This document shows positions 12,633-20,154 of a stretch of 53,457 nt of DNA, piece by piece; position 1 is the stretch's first letter; every line of letters begins with the position of its first letter. The translations under genes were made by a program, and so were the position numbers. The notes under the pieces were generated by a model. The model was not told the DNA's origin, did not search any database, and worked only from the letters and a program-made list of their open reading frames with translations. This DNA comes from Paracidovorax anthurii. Its GTDB lineage: Bacteria > Pseudomonadota > Gammaproteobacteria > Burkholderiales > Burkholderiaceae_C. The stretch lies in the NCBI RefSeq assembly GCF_003269065.1, contig NZ_QLTA01000037.1:1-53457 (forward strand), in the 5' to 3' direction.

Positions 12633-14315
12633 ATGAACGACCGCCCGTGGCTCGCCGCCTATCCCGAGGGAGTGCCGGCCGACATCGACCCGACGCAGTA
12701 CCCTTCGCTCGTCGCCTTGATGGAAGAGGCCTTCCGGAAGCATGCGGACCGCACGGCCTACAGCTTCATGGGCAAGGACGTGAGCTTCGCGGAGACCGAG
12801 GCGCAGAGCCGCCAGATGGCCGCCTACCTGCAGACCCTCGGGCTGTCGCGCGGGGACCGCGTGGCGATCATGATGCCCAACGTGCCCCAGTACCCCGTGG
12901 CCGTCGCGGCCGTGCTGCGCGCGGGCTTCGTGGTGGTCAACGTGAACCCGCTCTACACCCCGCGCGAGCTGGAGCACCAGCTCAAGGATTCGGGCGCCAG
13001 GGCCATCCTCATCATCGAGAACTTCGCGGCGACGCTGCAGGCCTGCATCGGCGCCACGCCGGTGCAGCACGTGGTGCTCGCGTCGATGGGCGATCGGCTG
13101 GGCCTGCTCAAGGGCCTGGTCGTGAACTACGTGGTGCGCAAGGTGAAGAAGCTGGTGCCGCCGTTCTCGCTGCCCGGCGCCGTGCGCTTCAACGATGCGC
13201 TGGCGCGCGGCGCGCGCGCCACGCTGGTCACGCCGGAGCTGCGGCCCGACGACGTGGCCCTGCTGCAGTACACCGGCGGCACGACCGGCATCTCCAAGGG
13301 CGCGGTGCTGCTGCACCGCAACCTCATCGCCAACGTGCTGCAGGCCGAGGCCTGGAACGCGCCCGCGATGCGCAAGGTGCCGGAAGGCGAGCAGCCCGCG
13401 AGCGTGTGCGCGCTGCCGCTCTATCACATCTTCGCGTTTACCGCGAACATGATGCTGGCCATGCGCACGGGCGCGAAGACCATCCTCATCCCGAACCCGC
13501 GCGACCTCGCCGCCGTGCTCAAGGAGCTGTCGCGCCACACCTTCCACAGCCTGCCGGCCGTGAACACGCTCTTCAACGGGCTGGCCAACCACCCCGACTT
13601 CAACACCGTGAACTGGAAGAACCTCAAGGTGTCGGTGGGCGGGGGCATGGCGGTGCAGAGCGCGGTGGCGCAGCTGTGGCTGCAGAAGACCGGCTGCCCG
13701 ATCTGCGAGGGCTACGGCCTCTCGGAGACCAGCCCCACGGTGAGCTGCAACCCGGTCACCAACACGGAGTTCACCGGCACCATCGGCGTGCCCATCTCCA
13801 GCACCCGCATGAAGCTCATCGACGACGAGGGCCGCGAGGTGACCGAGCTGGGCCGGGCCGGCGAGATCGCCATCCACGGCCCGCAGGTCATGGCCGGCTA
13901 CTGGCAGCGCCCCGACGAGACGGCCAAGGTCATGACCGAGGACGGCTACTTCAAGACTGGCGACATCGGCGTGATGGACGCGCGGGGCTTCTTCAAGATC
14001 GTGGACCGCAAGAAGGACATGGTGCTGGTGAGCGGCTTCAACGTCTATCCGAACGAGGTCGAGGAGGTCGTGGCCGCCTGCCCCGGCGTGCTCGAATGCG
14101 CGGTGGTGGGCGTGCCCGACGAGAAGACCGGCGAGGCCGTCAAGCTCGTGGTGGTGCGCAAGGACCCGGCGCTGTCGGAGTCGCACCTGCGCGAGTTCTG
14201 CCGCGCCAACCTCACGGGCTACAAGCAGCCGCGCGTGATCGAGTTCCGCGAATCCCTGCCCAAGACGCCCGTGGGCAAGATCCTGCGCCGGGAACTGCGC
14301 GACAAGAAGGCCTGA
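12633..14315 (+). CDS. fadD: Long-chain fatty acid CoA ligase
   Basis: Activates long-chain fatty acids to acyl-CoA using ATP, at the inner membrane. The 560-residue protein has the full ANL-superfamily order: P-loop-like YTGGTTGISKGA near 213, LPLYHIFAF near 263, the signature EGYGLSETSPT near 360, YFKTGDIG near 440, the hinge DRKKDMVLVSGFNVYP near 457 and the catalytic Lys in PVGKILRREL near 548. This is the E. coli FadD arrangement and length. A CTGGAG ribosome site precedes the start. Intrinsic terminators lie 29 bases before and 42 bases after the gene, so it forms its own transcription unit. Confidence 0.94.
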   Translation: MNDRPWLAAYPEGVPADIDPTQYPSLVALMEEAFRKHADRTAYSFMGKDVSFAETEAQSRQMAAYLQTLGLSRGDRVAIMMPNVPQYPVAVAAVLRAGFVVVNVNPLYTPRELEHQLKDSGARAILIIENFAATLQACIGATPVQHVVLASMGDRLGLLKGLVVNYVVRKVKKLVPPFSLPGAVRFNDALARGARATLVTPELRPDDVALLQYTGGTTGISKGAVLLHRNLIANVLQAEAWNAPAMRKVPEGEQPASVCALPLYHIFAFTANMMLAMRTGAKTILIPNPRDLAAVLKELSRHTFHSLPAVNTLFNGLANHPDFNTVNWKNLKVSVGGGMAVQSAVAQLWLQKTGCPICEGYGLSETSPTVSCNPVTNTEFTGTIGVPISSTRMKLIDDEGREVTELGRAGEIAIHGPQVMAGYWQRPDETAKVMTEDGYFKTGDIGVMDARGFFKIVDRKKDMVLVSGFNVYPNEVEEVVAACPGVLECAVVGVPDEKTGEAVKLVVVRKDPALSESHLREFCRANLTGYKQPRVIEFRESLPKTPVGKILRRELRDKKA

Positions 14316-16500: not shown

Positions 16501-17298
16501 TCAGCCTTCGCCAGGAGGGGGCGTGCCGGTGGCGCCGCGCACGCGGGCCAGCGCCCGGCAGAGATCGGCCCAGGCGGCGGCCTTGGCCTCGGGAGCGCGC
16601 AGCAGGTAGGCCGGGTCGTAGGTGACGACGGCCGGCGTGCCATCCGGCAGCTCGTGGGTGGTGGCGCGCAGCCGGCCCAGGGGGTCGCGGCTGCCGAGCA
16701 CGGCGCGCGCGGCCGAGAGGCCCAGCACCAGCACCAGCGCGGGCCGCAGCGCGGCGATCGCGTCCCGCACGGCGGCGGCCACGTCGGCATCGGCGCTCCC
16801 CGGCGCGGCCCGCTCCACGGCGGCGAAGAAGGCGCGGGGGTGGCGGTGCAGCTGCATGGCGCGCAGCATGTTGTCCAGCAGCTTGCCCGCATCGCCGCCC
16901 GCGAGGGGCGAGTCCGGGGCCGTGCTCTCGGCCACCACGAGCCAGCCCGAGCCCAGAGTGGCGGGCGTGGCGGCGGGATCGGCCTGCGGATAGAGCGGCA
17001 GCGGCGCGTGCAGCCGCAGCGCCGGGCCGGAGGCCTCCACGGCGCGGGGTGCCGCCTGCGGCGTGGCTGGGGCATCGGGCGCGCGCCGCGCGGCGGGGGG
17101 CGGGGCGGTGGCATCGGCCGGCAGGGCCCGGGCGGGGGGGGCCGAGGGGGGCTGCCGTGGCGGCTGCGGGGGGGCGGCCGTCTCAGGCGCGGCCTGCGCC
17201 GCCGTGGGCGCCGGGGTCGGCGCGGCCGAGGGCTGCCACACGGTGATGCCCATCTCGGCCAGCATGGCGCGCTGGCGGGCGTCCAGGTCGAGGCTCAT
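16501..17298 (-). CDS. UDG-superfamily protein, candidate DNA polymerase III psi subunit
   Basis: 265 residues: a short helix (MSLDLDARQRAMLAEMGITVW), a Pro/Ala-rich linker (about 22-95) and a UDG-fold domain (about 110-265). Automatic annotation would say uracil-DNA glycosylase. Yet the GEAPG active-site block reads VVAESTAPD, the HPSxLLR block reads TYDPAYLLR, and the domain has a single Cys, so the four iron-sulphur ligands of family 4 are absent. In E. coli the gene next to rimI is holD, and the psi protein N-terminus has the similar LGITQW that binds the clamp loader. I therefore suspect a psi equivalent. ATG overlaps the rimI stop (ATGA), so the two are translationally coupled. Confidence 0.6.
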   Translation of the reverse strand: MSLDLDARQRAMLAEMGITVWQPSAAPTPAPTAAQAAPETAAPPQPPRQPPSAPPARALPADATAPPPAARRAPDAPATPQAAPRAVEASGPALRLHAPLPLYPQADPAATPATLGSGWLVVAESTAPDSPLAGGDAGKLLDNMLRAMQLHRHPRAFFAAVERAAPGSADADVAAAVRDAIAALRPALVLVLGLSAARAVLGSRDPLGRLRATTHELPDGTPAVVTYDPAYLLRAPEAKAAAWADLCRALARVRGATGTPPPGEG

Positions 17299-17768
17299 AG
17301 GGCGAGGCTCATCACGATGGCGTCCTCGCGGCTGCCGTTCGCCGCGGGGTAGTAGCGCTTGCGCTCGCCCACGGTGCGGAATCCCCGGGCCAGGTACACG
17401 TCCCGCGCCCGCTGGTTGCTCACGCGCACTTCCAGCCACAGCCACTGGGCCTGCCGGCTGCGTGCCCAGAGCGCCAGGGCGTCGAGCAGCAGATGGGCCC
17501 AGCCCTGGCGCTGGTGGGACGGGGCCACCGTCAGGTTGAGCAGGTGCACCTCGTCCACGCCCTGCATGGCCACGAAATAGCCGATCAGATCGTCGTTGGC
17601 CGCGATCAGCAGCTGCGTTTCGTAGCCGGCGGCCAGCGCGTCCGTGAAGTTGCCGCGCGTCCAGGGGTACGCGTAGGCCTGCCGCTCCACGTCCAGCAGC
17701 AGGTCGAGCCGCGCGAGCGTGAGCGGCTCGAAGCGGACCGTGTCGGGGGAATGGGCAACGGCGCTCAT
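17295..17768 (-). CDS. rimI: Ribosomal protein S18 alanine N-acetyltransferase
   Basis: GNAT-fold acetyltransferase of 157 residues that acetylates the N-terminal Ala of ribosomal protein S18. The pattern is typical: LDLLLDVERQAYAYPWTRGNF at the start, LIGYFVAMQGVDEVHLLNLTV, the acetyl-CoA loop PSHQRQGWAHLLLDAL near 88, and the C-terminal LEVRVSNQRARDVYLARGF with GERKRYY. The loop reads RQGWA where RxxGxG/A is usual, within normal variation. It overlaps tsaB upstream and the UDG-like gene downstream by ATGA junctions, forming a tight three-gene operon. Confidence 0.9.
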   Translation of the reverse strand: MSAVAHSPDTVRFEPLTLARLDLLLDVERQAYAYPWTRGNFTDALAAGYETQLLIAANDDLIGYFVAMQGVDEVHLLNLTVAPSHQRQGWAHLLLDALALWARSRQAQWLWLEVRVSNQRARDVYLARGFRTVGERKRYYPAANGSREDAIVMSLAL

Positions 17769-18538
17769 GCCCGGGAGGATACGGAAGCCGGCCCGCCGGG
17801 GGAAGCCGCAGCGGCGACGGCCTCGCGCGCGGCCATGCGCTCGGCCGTGGTCTGCGCCACCTTGTCGCGCACGTAGCGCGGGAGCGCGGCGGCGGCGGGC
17901 ACCGCGCCGCCCGCCGCGAGCAGCGCGGGCGCGAGGCGCAGCAGGGCGCCGGCCGTGGGCAGGGCCGCCACGTGCGCGGAGGCGGGCGCGCCGGGCGCGA
18001 GCCGCTCGCCATAGGCGACCCGGGCGTTGCCGGCCACCGTCCAGCCGGCGGGCACCGCAACCGCCTCGGGCGCGCAGAGCCCGAAATCGCCATCGCCGGC
18101 ACTGCTCCACCCAGGGCCCGGATGCCAGTCGAAGCGGGCCGCGTACACCTCGTCCATGCGCGCGTCGAGCACCGCCACCACGCGCGTGCAGCCGTGCGTG
18201 GCGCGGGCCTCTTCCGCCAGGGCCAGCAGCGTGTCCACCGGCAGCACGGGCACGCCCTTGCCGCCGCGCGCGCCGAAGGCCAGCCCCTGGGCCACCGAGC
18301 AGGCGGTGCGCAGGCCCGTGAAGGAGCCGGGGCCGCGCCCGAAGACGATCGCGTCCAGCGTGTCGAACGACAGCCCGGCCTCGTCCAGCAGGCCCCGGAT
18401 CGCCGGCAGCAGCCCGGCCGAGGCCTGCGCGCCGCCGGGCGCGCTGCGCTCCCAGACCCGCGCGGCTTCGCCCTCCGCCTGCCGCTGGACGGCGATGGAG
18501 AGGGTGTCGGTGCTGGTGTCGAAGGCGAGCAGGTGCAT
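17765..18538 (-). CDS. tsaB: tRNA threonylcarbamoyladenosine protein TsaB
   Basis: Partner of TsaD in making the t6A base modification of ANN-decoding tRNAs. The 257-residue protein has the ASKHA fold start MHLLAFDTSTDTLSIAV and the signature FGRGPGSFTGLRTACSVAQGLAFG near 80, then VPVLPVDTLLALAEEA and VVAVLDARMDEVYAARF. I start at ATG 18538 (MHLLAFDTS); the frame allows 13 more residues that lack similarity. TsaC/Sua5, the enzyme making the threonylcarbamoyl donor for the same pathway, is also in this window (23272-24282), though not in the same operon. Coupled to rimI by a 4-base overlap. Confidence 0.93.
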   Translation of the reverse strand: MHLLAFDTSTDTLSIAVQRQAEGEAARVWERSAPGGAQASAGLLPAIRGLLDEAGLSFDTLDAIVFGRGPGSFTGLRTACSVAQGLAFGARGGKGVPVLPVDTLLALAEEARATHGCTRVVAVLDARMDEVYAARFDWHPGPGWSSAGDGDFGLCAPEAVAVPAGWTVAGNARVAYGERLAPGAPASAHVAALPTAGALLRLAPALLAAGGAVPAAAALPRYVRDKVAQTTAERMAAREAVAAAASPGGPASVSSRA

Positions 18539-18651
18539 GGCGAGGAGGGGCGCCGCGCCGGAGGCATGGGGCGGCAAGACGGCGATTATCGGCCACCGCC
18601 CCGGCCGGGATGGCCCGCAGGGCTGCTGTGCGCGTCCTAGACTCCCGGACC

Positions 18652-20154
18652 ATGCCCTTCCTGCGACCTTTCCTCTTTTCCCTGTCCCGTTCCCTGCGCG
18701 CCGCCGCGCGCCCGTCCCGCTGGCATGCGGCCTGGATCGGCGCGGCGCTGTCGCTCGCGGGCGGCACGGCGCTCGCGCAGGGCGCCGCCGCGCCGCGGGC
18801 GGCAGCGGTGCTGCCCGCCCCGGTGGAGGCCGCGCTGCAGCGCGCCAAGGTGCCGACCGACGCCGTCGCGTTCGTGGTGGCCGATGCCGAGGGCCGCCAG
18901 CCGCCGCGCCTGGCCTGGCGCGCGCAGGAGCCGATGAACCCGGCCTCGGTGATGAAGCTCGTCACCACCTACGCGGCGCTGGAGCTGCTGGGGCCCGCCT
19001 TCACCTGGGATACGCCCGTGTACTTCGACGCGCGGCCGCAGGGCGGCAGCCTGCGCGGCAATGTGTACATCCGCGGCGTGGGCGATCCGCAACTGGTGGT
19101 GGAGCGCCTCTGGCTGCTGCTGCGGCGCCTGCAGGCCCAGGGCGTGCAGGTGATCGTGGGCGACATCGTGCTCGACCGCAGCGCGTTCGACCTGCCCGCG
19201 CACGATGCCGCGCTGTTCGACGGCGAGCCGCTGCGGCCCTACAACGCCGCGCCCGACGCGCTGCTGGTCAACTTCAAGTCGGTCGCGCTCACCTTCGTGC
19301 CCGACGTGGCGGCGGGCGTGGCGCGCGTGCAGGCCGAGCCGCCGCTCGCGGGCGTGCCCTGGCCGGCCACCGTGCCCCTGGCGGCGCCGGGCGCCGAATG
19401 CAGCGACTGGCGCGCAGCGCTCAAGGCCGATTGGGCCGATCCCGCACGCGTGGCGTTCCAGGGCGTGTTCCCGGCGGCCTGCGGCGAGCGTGTCTGGTCC
19501 GTGGCGCCGCCCGATCCGCAGGGCTTCGCCGCGCGCGCCATCGAGGGCCTGTGGCGCGAGCTGGGCGGCAAGCTCACGGGCAGCGTGCGCGAGGGGCGCG
19601 TGCCGCCGGGGCTCGCGCCGGCTTTCAGCGTGGCGTCCCCGCCGCTGGCCGAGACGGTACGGGCCATCAACAAGTACAGCAACAACGTGATGACGCAGCA
19701 GCTCTTCCTCACGATCGCGCTGCAGAAGAACGGCACGGCCACGTTCGACGGCGCGCGCAATGCCGTGGCCCAATGGTGGAGCCAGCGCGTGCCGGGCGCG
19801 GAGCCGCCGGTGCTGGACAACGGCGCGGGACTGAGCCGCGAGGCCCGCGTGAGCGCCGCGTCGCTCGCGCGCATGCTGCAGGTGGCGTGGGCCTCGCCCG
19901 TCATGCCGGAGCTGCTCTCGTCGCTGCCCATCGCGGGCGTCGATGGCACGCTGCGGCGCAGCCAGGCCGGCCGGGCATCGCGCGCGGCGCACCTCAAGAC
20001 CGGCACGCTGCGCGATGCCTCGGCCCTCGCGGGCATCGTGCACGGGACCGGCGGCCGCCGCTACGTGGTGGTGGCCATCGCCAACCATCCGAACGCGGCC
20101 GCGGCGCGCCCGGCGATGGAGGCGCTGGTGGACTGGGTGGCGGCGCAGCGGTAG
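18652..20154 (+). CDS. dacB: D-alanyl-D-alanine carboxypeptidase/endopeptidase (PBP4)
   Basis: Periplasmic penicillin-binding protein of class C that trims or cleaves peptidoglycan cross-links. 500 residues from ATG 18652 with a signal peptide (hydrophobic part about 28-43, cleavage likely after TALAQ). The three active-site motifs are present: SVMK with Ser99 and Lys102, SNN near 343 in INKYSNNVMTQQ, and KTG near 449 in AHLKTGTLRDAS. The large insertion between SxxK and SxN (about 150-320) is the hallmark of PBP4/DacB. It is divergent from tsaB with a gap of 113 bases. A 14-residue longer frame upstream has no signal-like features. Confidence 0.93.
   Translation: MPFLRPFLFSLSRSLRAAARPSRWHAAWIGAALSLAGGTALAQGAAAPRAAAVLPAPVEAALQRAKVPTDAVAFVVADAEGRQPPRLAWRAQEPMNPASVMKLVTTYAALELLGPAFTWDTPVYFDARPQGGSLRGNVYIRGVGDPQLVVERLWLLLRRLQAQGVQVIVGDIVLDRSAFDLPAHDAALFDGEPLRPYNAAPDALLVNFKSVALTFVPDVAAGVARVQAEPPLAGVPWPATVPLAAPGAECSDWRAALKADWADPARVAFQGVFPAACGERVWSVAPPDPQGFAARAIEGLWRELGGKLTGSVREGRVPPGLAPAFSVASPPLAETVRAINKYSNNVMTQQLFLTIALQKNGTATFDGARNAVAQWWSQRVPGAEPPVLDNGAGLSREARVSAASLARMLQVAWASPVMPELLSSLPIAGVDGTLRRSQAGRASRAAHLKTGTLRDASALAGIVHGTGGRRYVVVAIANHPNAAAARPAMEALVDWVAAQR

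Follow-up and report, generated by a model that had tools for sequence, protein, structure and literature searches.

Does a gene next to rimI in Paracidovorax anthurii, whose product looks like a uracil-DNA glycosylase (UDG), encode the psi subunit (HolD) of the DNA polymerase III clamp loader? The gene lies on a stretch of 53,457 nucleotides (contig NZ_QLTA01000037.1 of assembly GCF_003269065.1, positions 1 to 53,457 of the forward strand), called the window below; in the GTDB lineage the species falls in the order Burkholderiales of the class Gammaproteobacteria. In Escherichia coli, as described in PMC3290774 and PMC3197488, the N-terminal end of psi inserts into the DnaX domain III collar, and psi forms the link to chi (HolC), the subunit that binds SSB. 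A 2012 review lists chi in alpha-, beta- and gamma-proteobacteria and psi in the gammas only, and asks whether psi elsewhere has diverged beyond detection or chi acts alone (PMC3290774); several genomes are described as having a chi with an apparently conserved psi-binding site and no recognisable psi (PMC3197488). A preliminary description of the window, made from its letters alone, had proposed the gene as a psi candidate. We conclude that it is, with high probability, a holD orthologue encoding psi.

A UDG-fold protein beside rimI

The layout first read from the sequence, an N-terminus holding MGITVW, a Pro-rich linker and a UDG-fold domain, was recovered. A helix is predicted at residues 7-15 and MGITVW occupies residues 16-21; the linker (residues 23-108) contains 26 Pro and 27 Ala among 86 residues; the Pfam UDG model (PF03167) matches residues 134-246 (E=2.6e-9, 37.7 bits, cut-off 24.3). 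Predicted structure and structure searches both give a UDG fold, with family-4 UDGs (UDG4) ranked at the top. The motif A of this family is given as GE(A/G)PG in PMC10359453. Compared with intact relatives in an alignment, the window protein has lost motif A (GEAPG..ED..GEPFVG) except for the Glu of GE, AEST starting at residue 123; its motif B reads DPAYLLR (YDPAYLL from residue 227), so that the His of HPS or HPA followed by LLR is gone. The four columns of iron-sulphur (Fe-S) cysteines read S, A, A and V, and C247 is the sole Cys of the entire protein. The replacement of the catalytic blocks by AESTA and DPA, and the lack of an Fe-S cluster, had thus been seen correctly. Unlike the family-4 UDGs of Thermus (1ui0), Sulfolobus (4zbx) and Thermotoga (1vk2) and unlike UdgX, the window protein lacks a full motif A, the motif B His and the Fe-S cysteines. 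The alignments show that its lineage lost these features and kept the N-terminal peptide, a LLDNML helix and a C-terminal block.

The rimI neighbour was verified by its TIGR01575 match. The ATG of the candidate and the stop of rimI overlap as ATGA, and, judged from coordinates, the rimI ATG overlaps the stop of tsaB; ATGA-type overlaps at both junctions place tsaB, rimI and the psi candidate in one operon. Two points about E. coli in the preliminary description were checked and are right: holD adjoins and overlaps rimI, and psi carries LGITQW at its N-terminus. Its C-terminus is LRANPTARAALWQQIC, and the block of the window protein said to resemble it is indeed its counterpart through the bridging profiles described below. 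The window protein and E. coli psi (137 aa; PDB 1em8, 3sxu, 8giy) therefore have in common a rimI neighbour, an N-terminal (L/M)GIT.W peptide and a C-terminal block that contains LR and A..W and ends in C, and their cores are linked through the same bridging proteins. They differ in that the window protein is about twice as long, with a UDG fold that can still be recognised and with a Pro/Ala linker, and in that its gene follows rimI whereas E. coli holD precedes it. Psi of Pseudomonas aeruginosa (PA4679, 278 aa, essential) has, by description, a similar layout, with a conserved N-terminus, a long disordered stretch and a C-terminal core; these accounts, in their passages on psi, mention no relation to UDG (PMC3197488, PMC8879598).

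The rimI-linked family and its tie to E. coli psi

A single-sequence search of 200 order genomes found a relative in 176. At 64 of 68 order loci rimI lies upstream on the same strand, and the other four have no rimI in the stretch. Most of these relatives look like intact family-4 UDGs, with GE(A/G)PG..ED..GEPFVG, four Cys and HPAYLLR, and still bear a short N-terminal peptide, for example REEILKELGLWPQWRLK. Sixty-two of the 68 loci were used for a family profile; its alignment A1 has 48 rows including the window protein, in all of which W21 is invariant, the rows having been partly picked for having the peptide. In a sample of 274 genomes from across the class, profile A1 found matches in 220. 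Relatives linked to rimI are widespread among beta- and gamma-proteobacteria.

A further 110 class loci were taken from the best 30 genomes of the A1 search and the best 80 of 458 relatives in a named collection (L004 and L146 denote one gene). RimI was seen in 103 of them, on the same strand every time: 64 have the order rimI-gene and 39, of gamma type (e.g. Methylococcus and Thiothrix), have the order gene-rimI, which is that of E. coli holD-rimI. With all loci pooled, rimI was seen at 167 of 178, on the same strand in all 167, the gene following it in 128 (beta type) and preceding it in 39. The peptide scored above 5 bits in 102 of the 110 class loci and was recognised by eye in seven of the other eight (in L196, F replaces W), leaving L220, from Acidithiobacillus, as the lone class locus with no peptide by score or eye. 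Where no rimI was seen (seven class loci, of which L183 is at a contig edge), the peptide was above 5 bits in all except L220.

Outside the class, none of 27 UDG4 loci from the phylum had a W-type peptide above 5 bits, and none had rimI nearby, the BLAST search for rimI having used the proteins of the window and of E. coli as queries, which may miss diverged rimI, above all outside the class. UDG4s of the PDB match the family model from position 67 on, without the peptide. Because both are absent from the outside-class loci, the peptide and the rimI link accompany this lineage and are not a property of UDG4s generally. Many of the outside-class UDG4s (L312, L314, L315, L317-L340) start with other short recurring helices (FLETYLREIGVQTPVSL; LEWYLAAGVDEAIGD), and chi was found in 44 of 45 such genomes; possibly these helices are a diverged docking peptide, so that a UDG4 might act as psi there too.

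Some family members are unusual. In L077-L081, which belong to one family (f42), the peptide is altered and ends in NLW, and in L078 catalytic residues are lost as well. L029:1489-2814 (minus) encodes a protein of about 440 aa in which a long additional segment, in frame, separates the peptide from the UDG core; by eye this segment resembles a REP-associated tyrosine transposase. L183 and L186 are on contigs titled as metagenome-assembled genomes of other phyla (Singulisphaera, Akkermansia), yet they carry Comamonadaceae-like family members; these contigs are probably mis-binned.

The profile-profile check against HolD and UDG suggested by the preliminary description gave different answers for the two ends of the protein. 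The N-terminal columns of the family and of HolD aligned (hhalign) with a score of 29.6 and E 1.7e-9, the best of 200 column-shuffled nulls reaching 14.0. This gapped comparison was used in place of a gapless weight matrix of the peptide, which was dropped: E. coli psi scored poorly on it (30 of 2000 shuffles reach its score), because the commoner beta peptide has one extra residue between G and W. Comparison of the HolD core directly with the UDG4 core was weak (P 0.031, a value attained by 2 of 200 shuffles) and at most suggestive, and bridging sequences were therefore sought.

These came from the 24 order genomes in which the single-sequence search had found no relative. RimI was over the cut-off in 22 of them; the remaining two, which are 86% and 87% complete, had no rimI over the cut-off. 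With a threshold of 1.5 bits, the gene after rimI bears the peptide by score in 21 of the 22 genomes (lowest 2.0 bits), and by eye in the last (L293). Among the 21 rimI neighbours one is an intact UDG (L288), and 15 are shorter than 176 aa with a worn core. Fifteen of the 21 entered the core comparison, after removal of L288 and of the truncated or most diverged L284, L287, L292, L294 and L296; the bridging profile A4 holds 14 sequences, L299 also being left out. The HolD core profile combined the E. coli sequence with those from 30 genomes of a single order (31 in all).

With the peptide removed, the match between the HolD core and the 15-member bridging core had E 4.2e-10, scoring 57.4 against 15.3 for the best of 150 column shuffles; that between the bridging core and the intact UDG4 core had E 8.6e-19, scoring 112.7 against 20.0 for the best of 150 shuffles. 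Five bridging sequences from one family alone gave E 1.7e-10 with HolD and 4.4e-12 with UDG4. Unrelated control profiles (HolC, RimI, TsaB) gave E 0.095 to 0.79. Run against 177,635 PDB sequences, the bridging profile retrieved E. coli psi (6.8e-4, 7.2e-4 and 3.8e-3, the last being 1em8_B, psi without the peptide) and the Thermus UDG (2.5e-3); E. coli psi and this one UDG4 were the only matches below E=1, the next being at 1.3. Pfam at E up to 1 placed 6 of the 14 bridging proteins in psi and 2 in UDG, and when five were rescanned three passed the psi cut-off, one the UDG cut-off and one neither. In L076 a single frame joins an N-terminus over the Pfam psi cut-off (with its neighbours in frame) to a UDG core (E 3e-51).

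In conclusion, homology of the family core to HolD is supported via the bridging proteins, without any contribution from the peptide, and these comparisons of sequence tie E. coli psi to the rimI-linked UDG4 family. Because the bridging proteins match both HolD and UDG4, E. coli psi is very probably a descendant of a rimI-linked UDG4, and the window gene is very probably a psi orthologue that lost catalysis. The proposed psi identity is thereby upheld; the apparent membership of E. coli psi itself in this lineage goes beyond what the preliminary description had claimed.

Loss of catalysis and alternative explanations

Five catalytic residues were scored in 177 family members; 155 are intact and 22 degenerate, with at least two of the five changed (L084, L111, L112, L178 and L185, with one change, were counted as intact), and these counts lean towards intact because best matches were chosen. 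Thus, most examined members of the rimI-linked family are family-4 UDGs with an N-terminal W-containing peptide, which have the rimI neighbour, the peptide and the C-terminal block in common with the window protein and differ from it in their intact catalytic and Fe-S motifs. Thirteen of the 22 degenerate proteins keep all four cluster Cys columns, which hints that loss of catalysis precedes that of the Fe-S cluster; the columns are lost in the window clade (L001, L002, L003, L005) and in L176, L177, L179 and L182. A FastTree tree of the 177 members, with motif columns removed, implies at least five changes between intact and degenerate, three of them forced by starred branches (62 of 171 inner branches are weak). 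Loss of catalysis had been taken as a sign of a clamp-loader role. The loss is real, but it is no hallmark of psi: since most examined relatives keep the glycosylase motifs, it is late and repeated.

What the degenerate members conserve was measured as mean pairwise identity in 20 of the 22 (L078 and L200 were left out). The peptide is the most conserved of seven stretches (76.9%), followed by the LLDNML helix (66.8%) and the C-terminal block (64.1%), while the former motif A (34.9%), residues 151-192 (32.8%) and the linker (28.6%, the least conserved) drift. This pattern fits selection for docking and for a protein-binding core, not for catalysis.

Several results weigh against reading the window gene as psi, besides the weak direct comparison of cores. 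The window protein alone falls under the cut-off of Pfam psi, PF03603 (13.3 versus 22.2 bits, E=0.099), and the match is confined to the peptide (residues 8-22 on model positions 3-17); we regard this cut-off as diagnostic of a close E. coli-type psi and not as a biological definition, and the protein is not filed there. Psi is absent among the 50 structure-search matches listed, where UDGs rank first, a result that is neutral towards the psi-UDG link. A peptide-only profile run against the PDB retrieves no psi, its best matches being unrelated (E 0.09), and the PDB matches of the bridging profile weaken when single stretches are taken, the best of them reaching E 0.017 for psi and 0.0038 for UDG. 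With HolD, two small bridging subsets give weak matches (E 0.0067 and 0.0076); a third gives 7.3e-5. Finally, no chi was detected in six genomes that have a family member, the five of f42 (L077-L081) and G035, and class-wide 23 genomes have the family or PF03603 without chi and 26 have chi without either.

In favour of the psi reading, the window genome does have chi (PF04364, E 1.4e-34). Chi was otherwise widespread, in 194 of 200 order genomes and 234 of 274 class genomes; PF03603 matches 13 of the 274. Over the same 274 genomes, 208 have both chi and the family or PF03603 and 17 have neither (odds ratio 5.9, p 7e-6, ignoring relatedness). This co-occurrence carries little weight, as A1 matches may include other UDG4s. 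Among 112 genomes compared, both genes are on one contig in 33, and in 24 the distance from holC to the best family match is at most 40 kb.

The alternative that survives best, though we consider it unlikely, is that a dead UDG was retained for base excision repair, where it would bind uracil or lesions or have a regulatory part; its peptide would recruit it to the replisome, and it would neither replace psi nor bind chi. The family-4 fold and the genomes with the gene and no detected chi suit this explanation, and the peptide alone would account for tethering without chi; it leaves the former motif A among the least conserved parts of a protein whose psi-shared C-terminal block is kept, and E. 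coli psi connects to the same family. Moreover, the second holD that the preliminary description had named as a refutation was looked for, with no PF03603 psi gene found in the window genome.

An even smaller chance is left to a convergent peptide that binds another partner, the rimI adjacency being old operon history and psi being unknown or absent here. Short peptides evolve easily, outside-class UDG4s bear other N-terminal helices, and the peptide by itself does not find psi in the PDB. Against this stand the core homology obtained with the peptide removed, the peptide kept in six of the seven class loci where rimI was not seen, and the holD-rimI order of gamma loci.

That the window protein still works as a glycosylase, with modified motifs, we think very improbable. 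In L001, L002, L003 and L005 the Fe-S cysteine columns, the motif B His and all of motif A but the Glu have changed jointly, the sequence from motif A to LLDNML has become shorter or been replaced, and the genome has a separate Ung-like gene. For us these points outweigh the retained fold, the remaining Glu of the former GE pair and the variation of motif residues among UDG families. A decaying pseudogene is hardly conceivable, for the frame is open, and overlaps rimI by ATGA in an operon, and 20 degenerate relatives have the peptide, the helix and the C-terminal block conserved, even though catalytic motifs are lost, by the tree in several lineages.

Features of the window that bear on the psi candidate
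Feature	Position	Strand	Remarks
psi (HolD) candidate	16501..17298	-	265 aa, catalytically degenerate UDG4-fold protein; stop at 16501-16503
N-terminal peptide, residues 5-22	17233..17286	-	predicted DnaX-collar docking peptide, by analogy with E. coli psi as described
Pro/Ala-rich linker, residues 23-108	16975..17232	-	from composition, conservation and model
UDG-fold core, residues 109-257	16528..16974	-	Pfam and predicted structure, confident from about residue 116
former motif A site, AESTA replacing GEAPG, residues 123-127	16918..16932	-	alignment to relatives
former motif B site, YDPAYLLR, residues 227-234, His to Asp	16597..16620	-	alignment to relatives
C-terminal block LLRAPEAKAAAWADLC, residues 232-247	16558..16605	-	counterpart of E. 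coli psi LRANPTARAALWQQIC via bridging profiles
rimI, ribosomal protein S18-alanine N-acetyltransferase	17295..17768	-	TIGR01575, E=8e-32
tsaB (T6A_YeaZ)	17765..18577	-	TIGR03725, E=4e-51

Two further open reading frames of the window were identified by eye, a DacB-type D-Ala-D-Ala carboxypeptidase (18610-20154, +) and a long-chain acyl-CoA ligase (12633-14315, +).

A proposed clamp-loader role for the family

As psi, the window protein would insert the peptide of residues 5-22 into the DnaX domain III collar as E. coli psi does, its Pro/Ala linker would serve as a flexible tether, and its UDG-fold core would have turned into a protein-protein module holding chi, which grips the SSB tail. The protein would then link the clamp loader to the SSB-coated lagging strand without excising uracil, ordinary uracil repair being presumably left to a separate Ung-like gene. 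The window genome has two other UDG-superfamily genes, L309:1291-2034 and L311:1468-2052 (minus), and could thus still repair uracil even though the window gene no longer encodes the catalytic motifs. L309 is the one we take to be Ung-like, as GQDPYH and HPSPLS, seen by eye, are motifs of Ung.

For the family at large we lean, with more reserve, towards psi being a repurposed family-4 UDG. An intact glycosylase would be part of the clamp loader of most beta- and many gamma-proteobacteria, and the activity would have been lost, apparently separately, in E. coli, in Comamonadaceae and in several other lines, with the structural bridge kept. The intact relatives would act as glycosylases at the fork, tethered via the DnaX collar peptide and, with chi, to the SSB-coated template. 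Many proteobacteria may thus carry a clamp loader with a built-in glycosylase.

That the window gene is a strongly diverged psi would be the less surprising part of these results; the more surprising one is the apparent origin of psi from a UDG. The psi fold may already have been likened to the uracil glycosylase fold, which would make the fold part less new. In the open-access literature, as far as its accessible text goes, we found no paper connecting psi with UDG or naming psi in beta-proteobacteria; the portions of PMC13213242, PMC11253446, PMC13220808 and PMC5872134 at hand contain no psi-UDG link, and none of the terms sought for such a link is present in PMC12926913.

These data offer a candidate for the missing psi of beta-proteobacteria together with an origin for psi, and suggest that psi was overlooked by sequence searches because the gene looks like a repair enzyme. 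They also raise a directly testable idea, namely that a clamp loader may contain a uracil glycosylase of its own. The intact rimI-linked UDG4s are usually annotated as uracil-DNA glycosylases; if the idea is true, genes so named beside rimI need a second look, and losing them should give replication phenotypes, beyond mutator ones alone. As psi is reported to have resisted deletion in P. aeruginosa (PMC8879598), the family may be essential elsewhere too.
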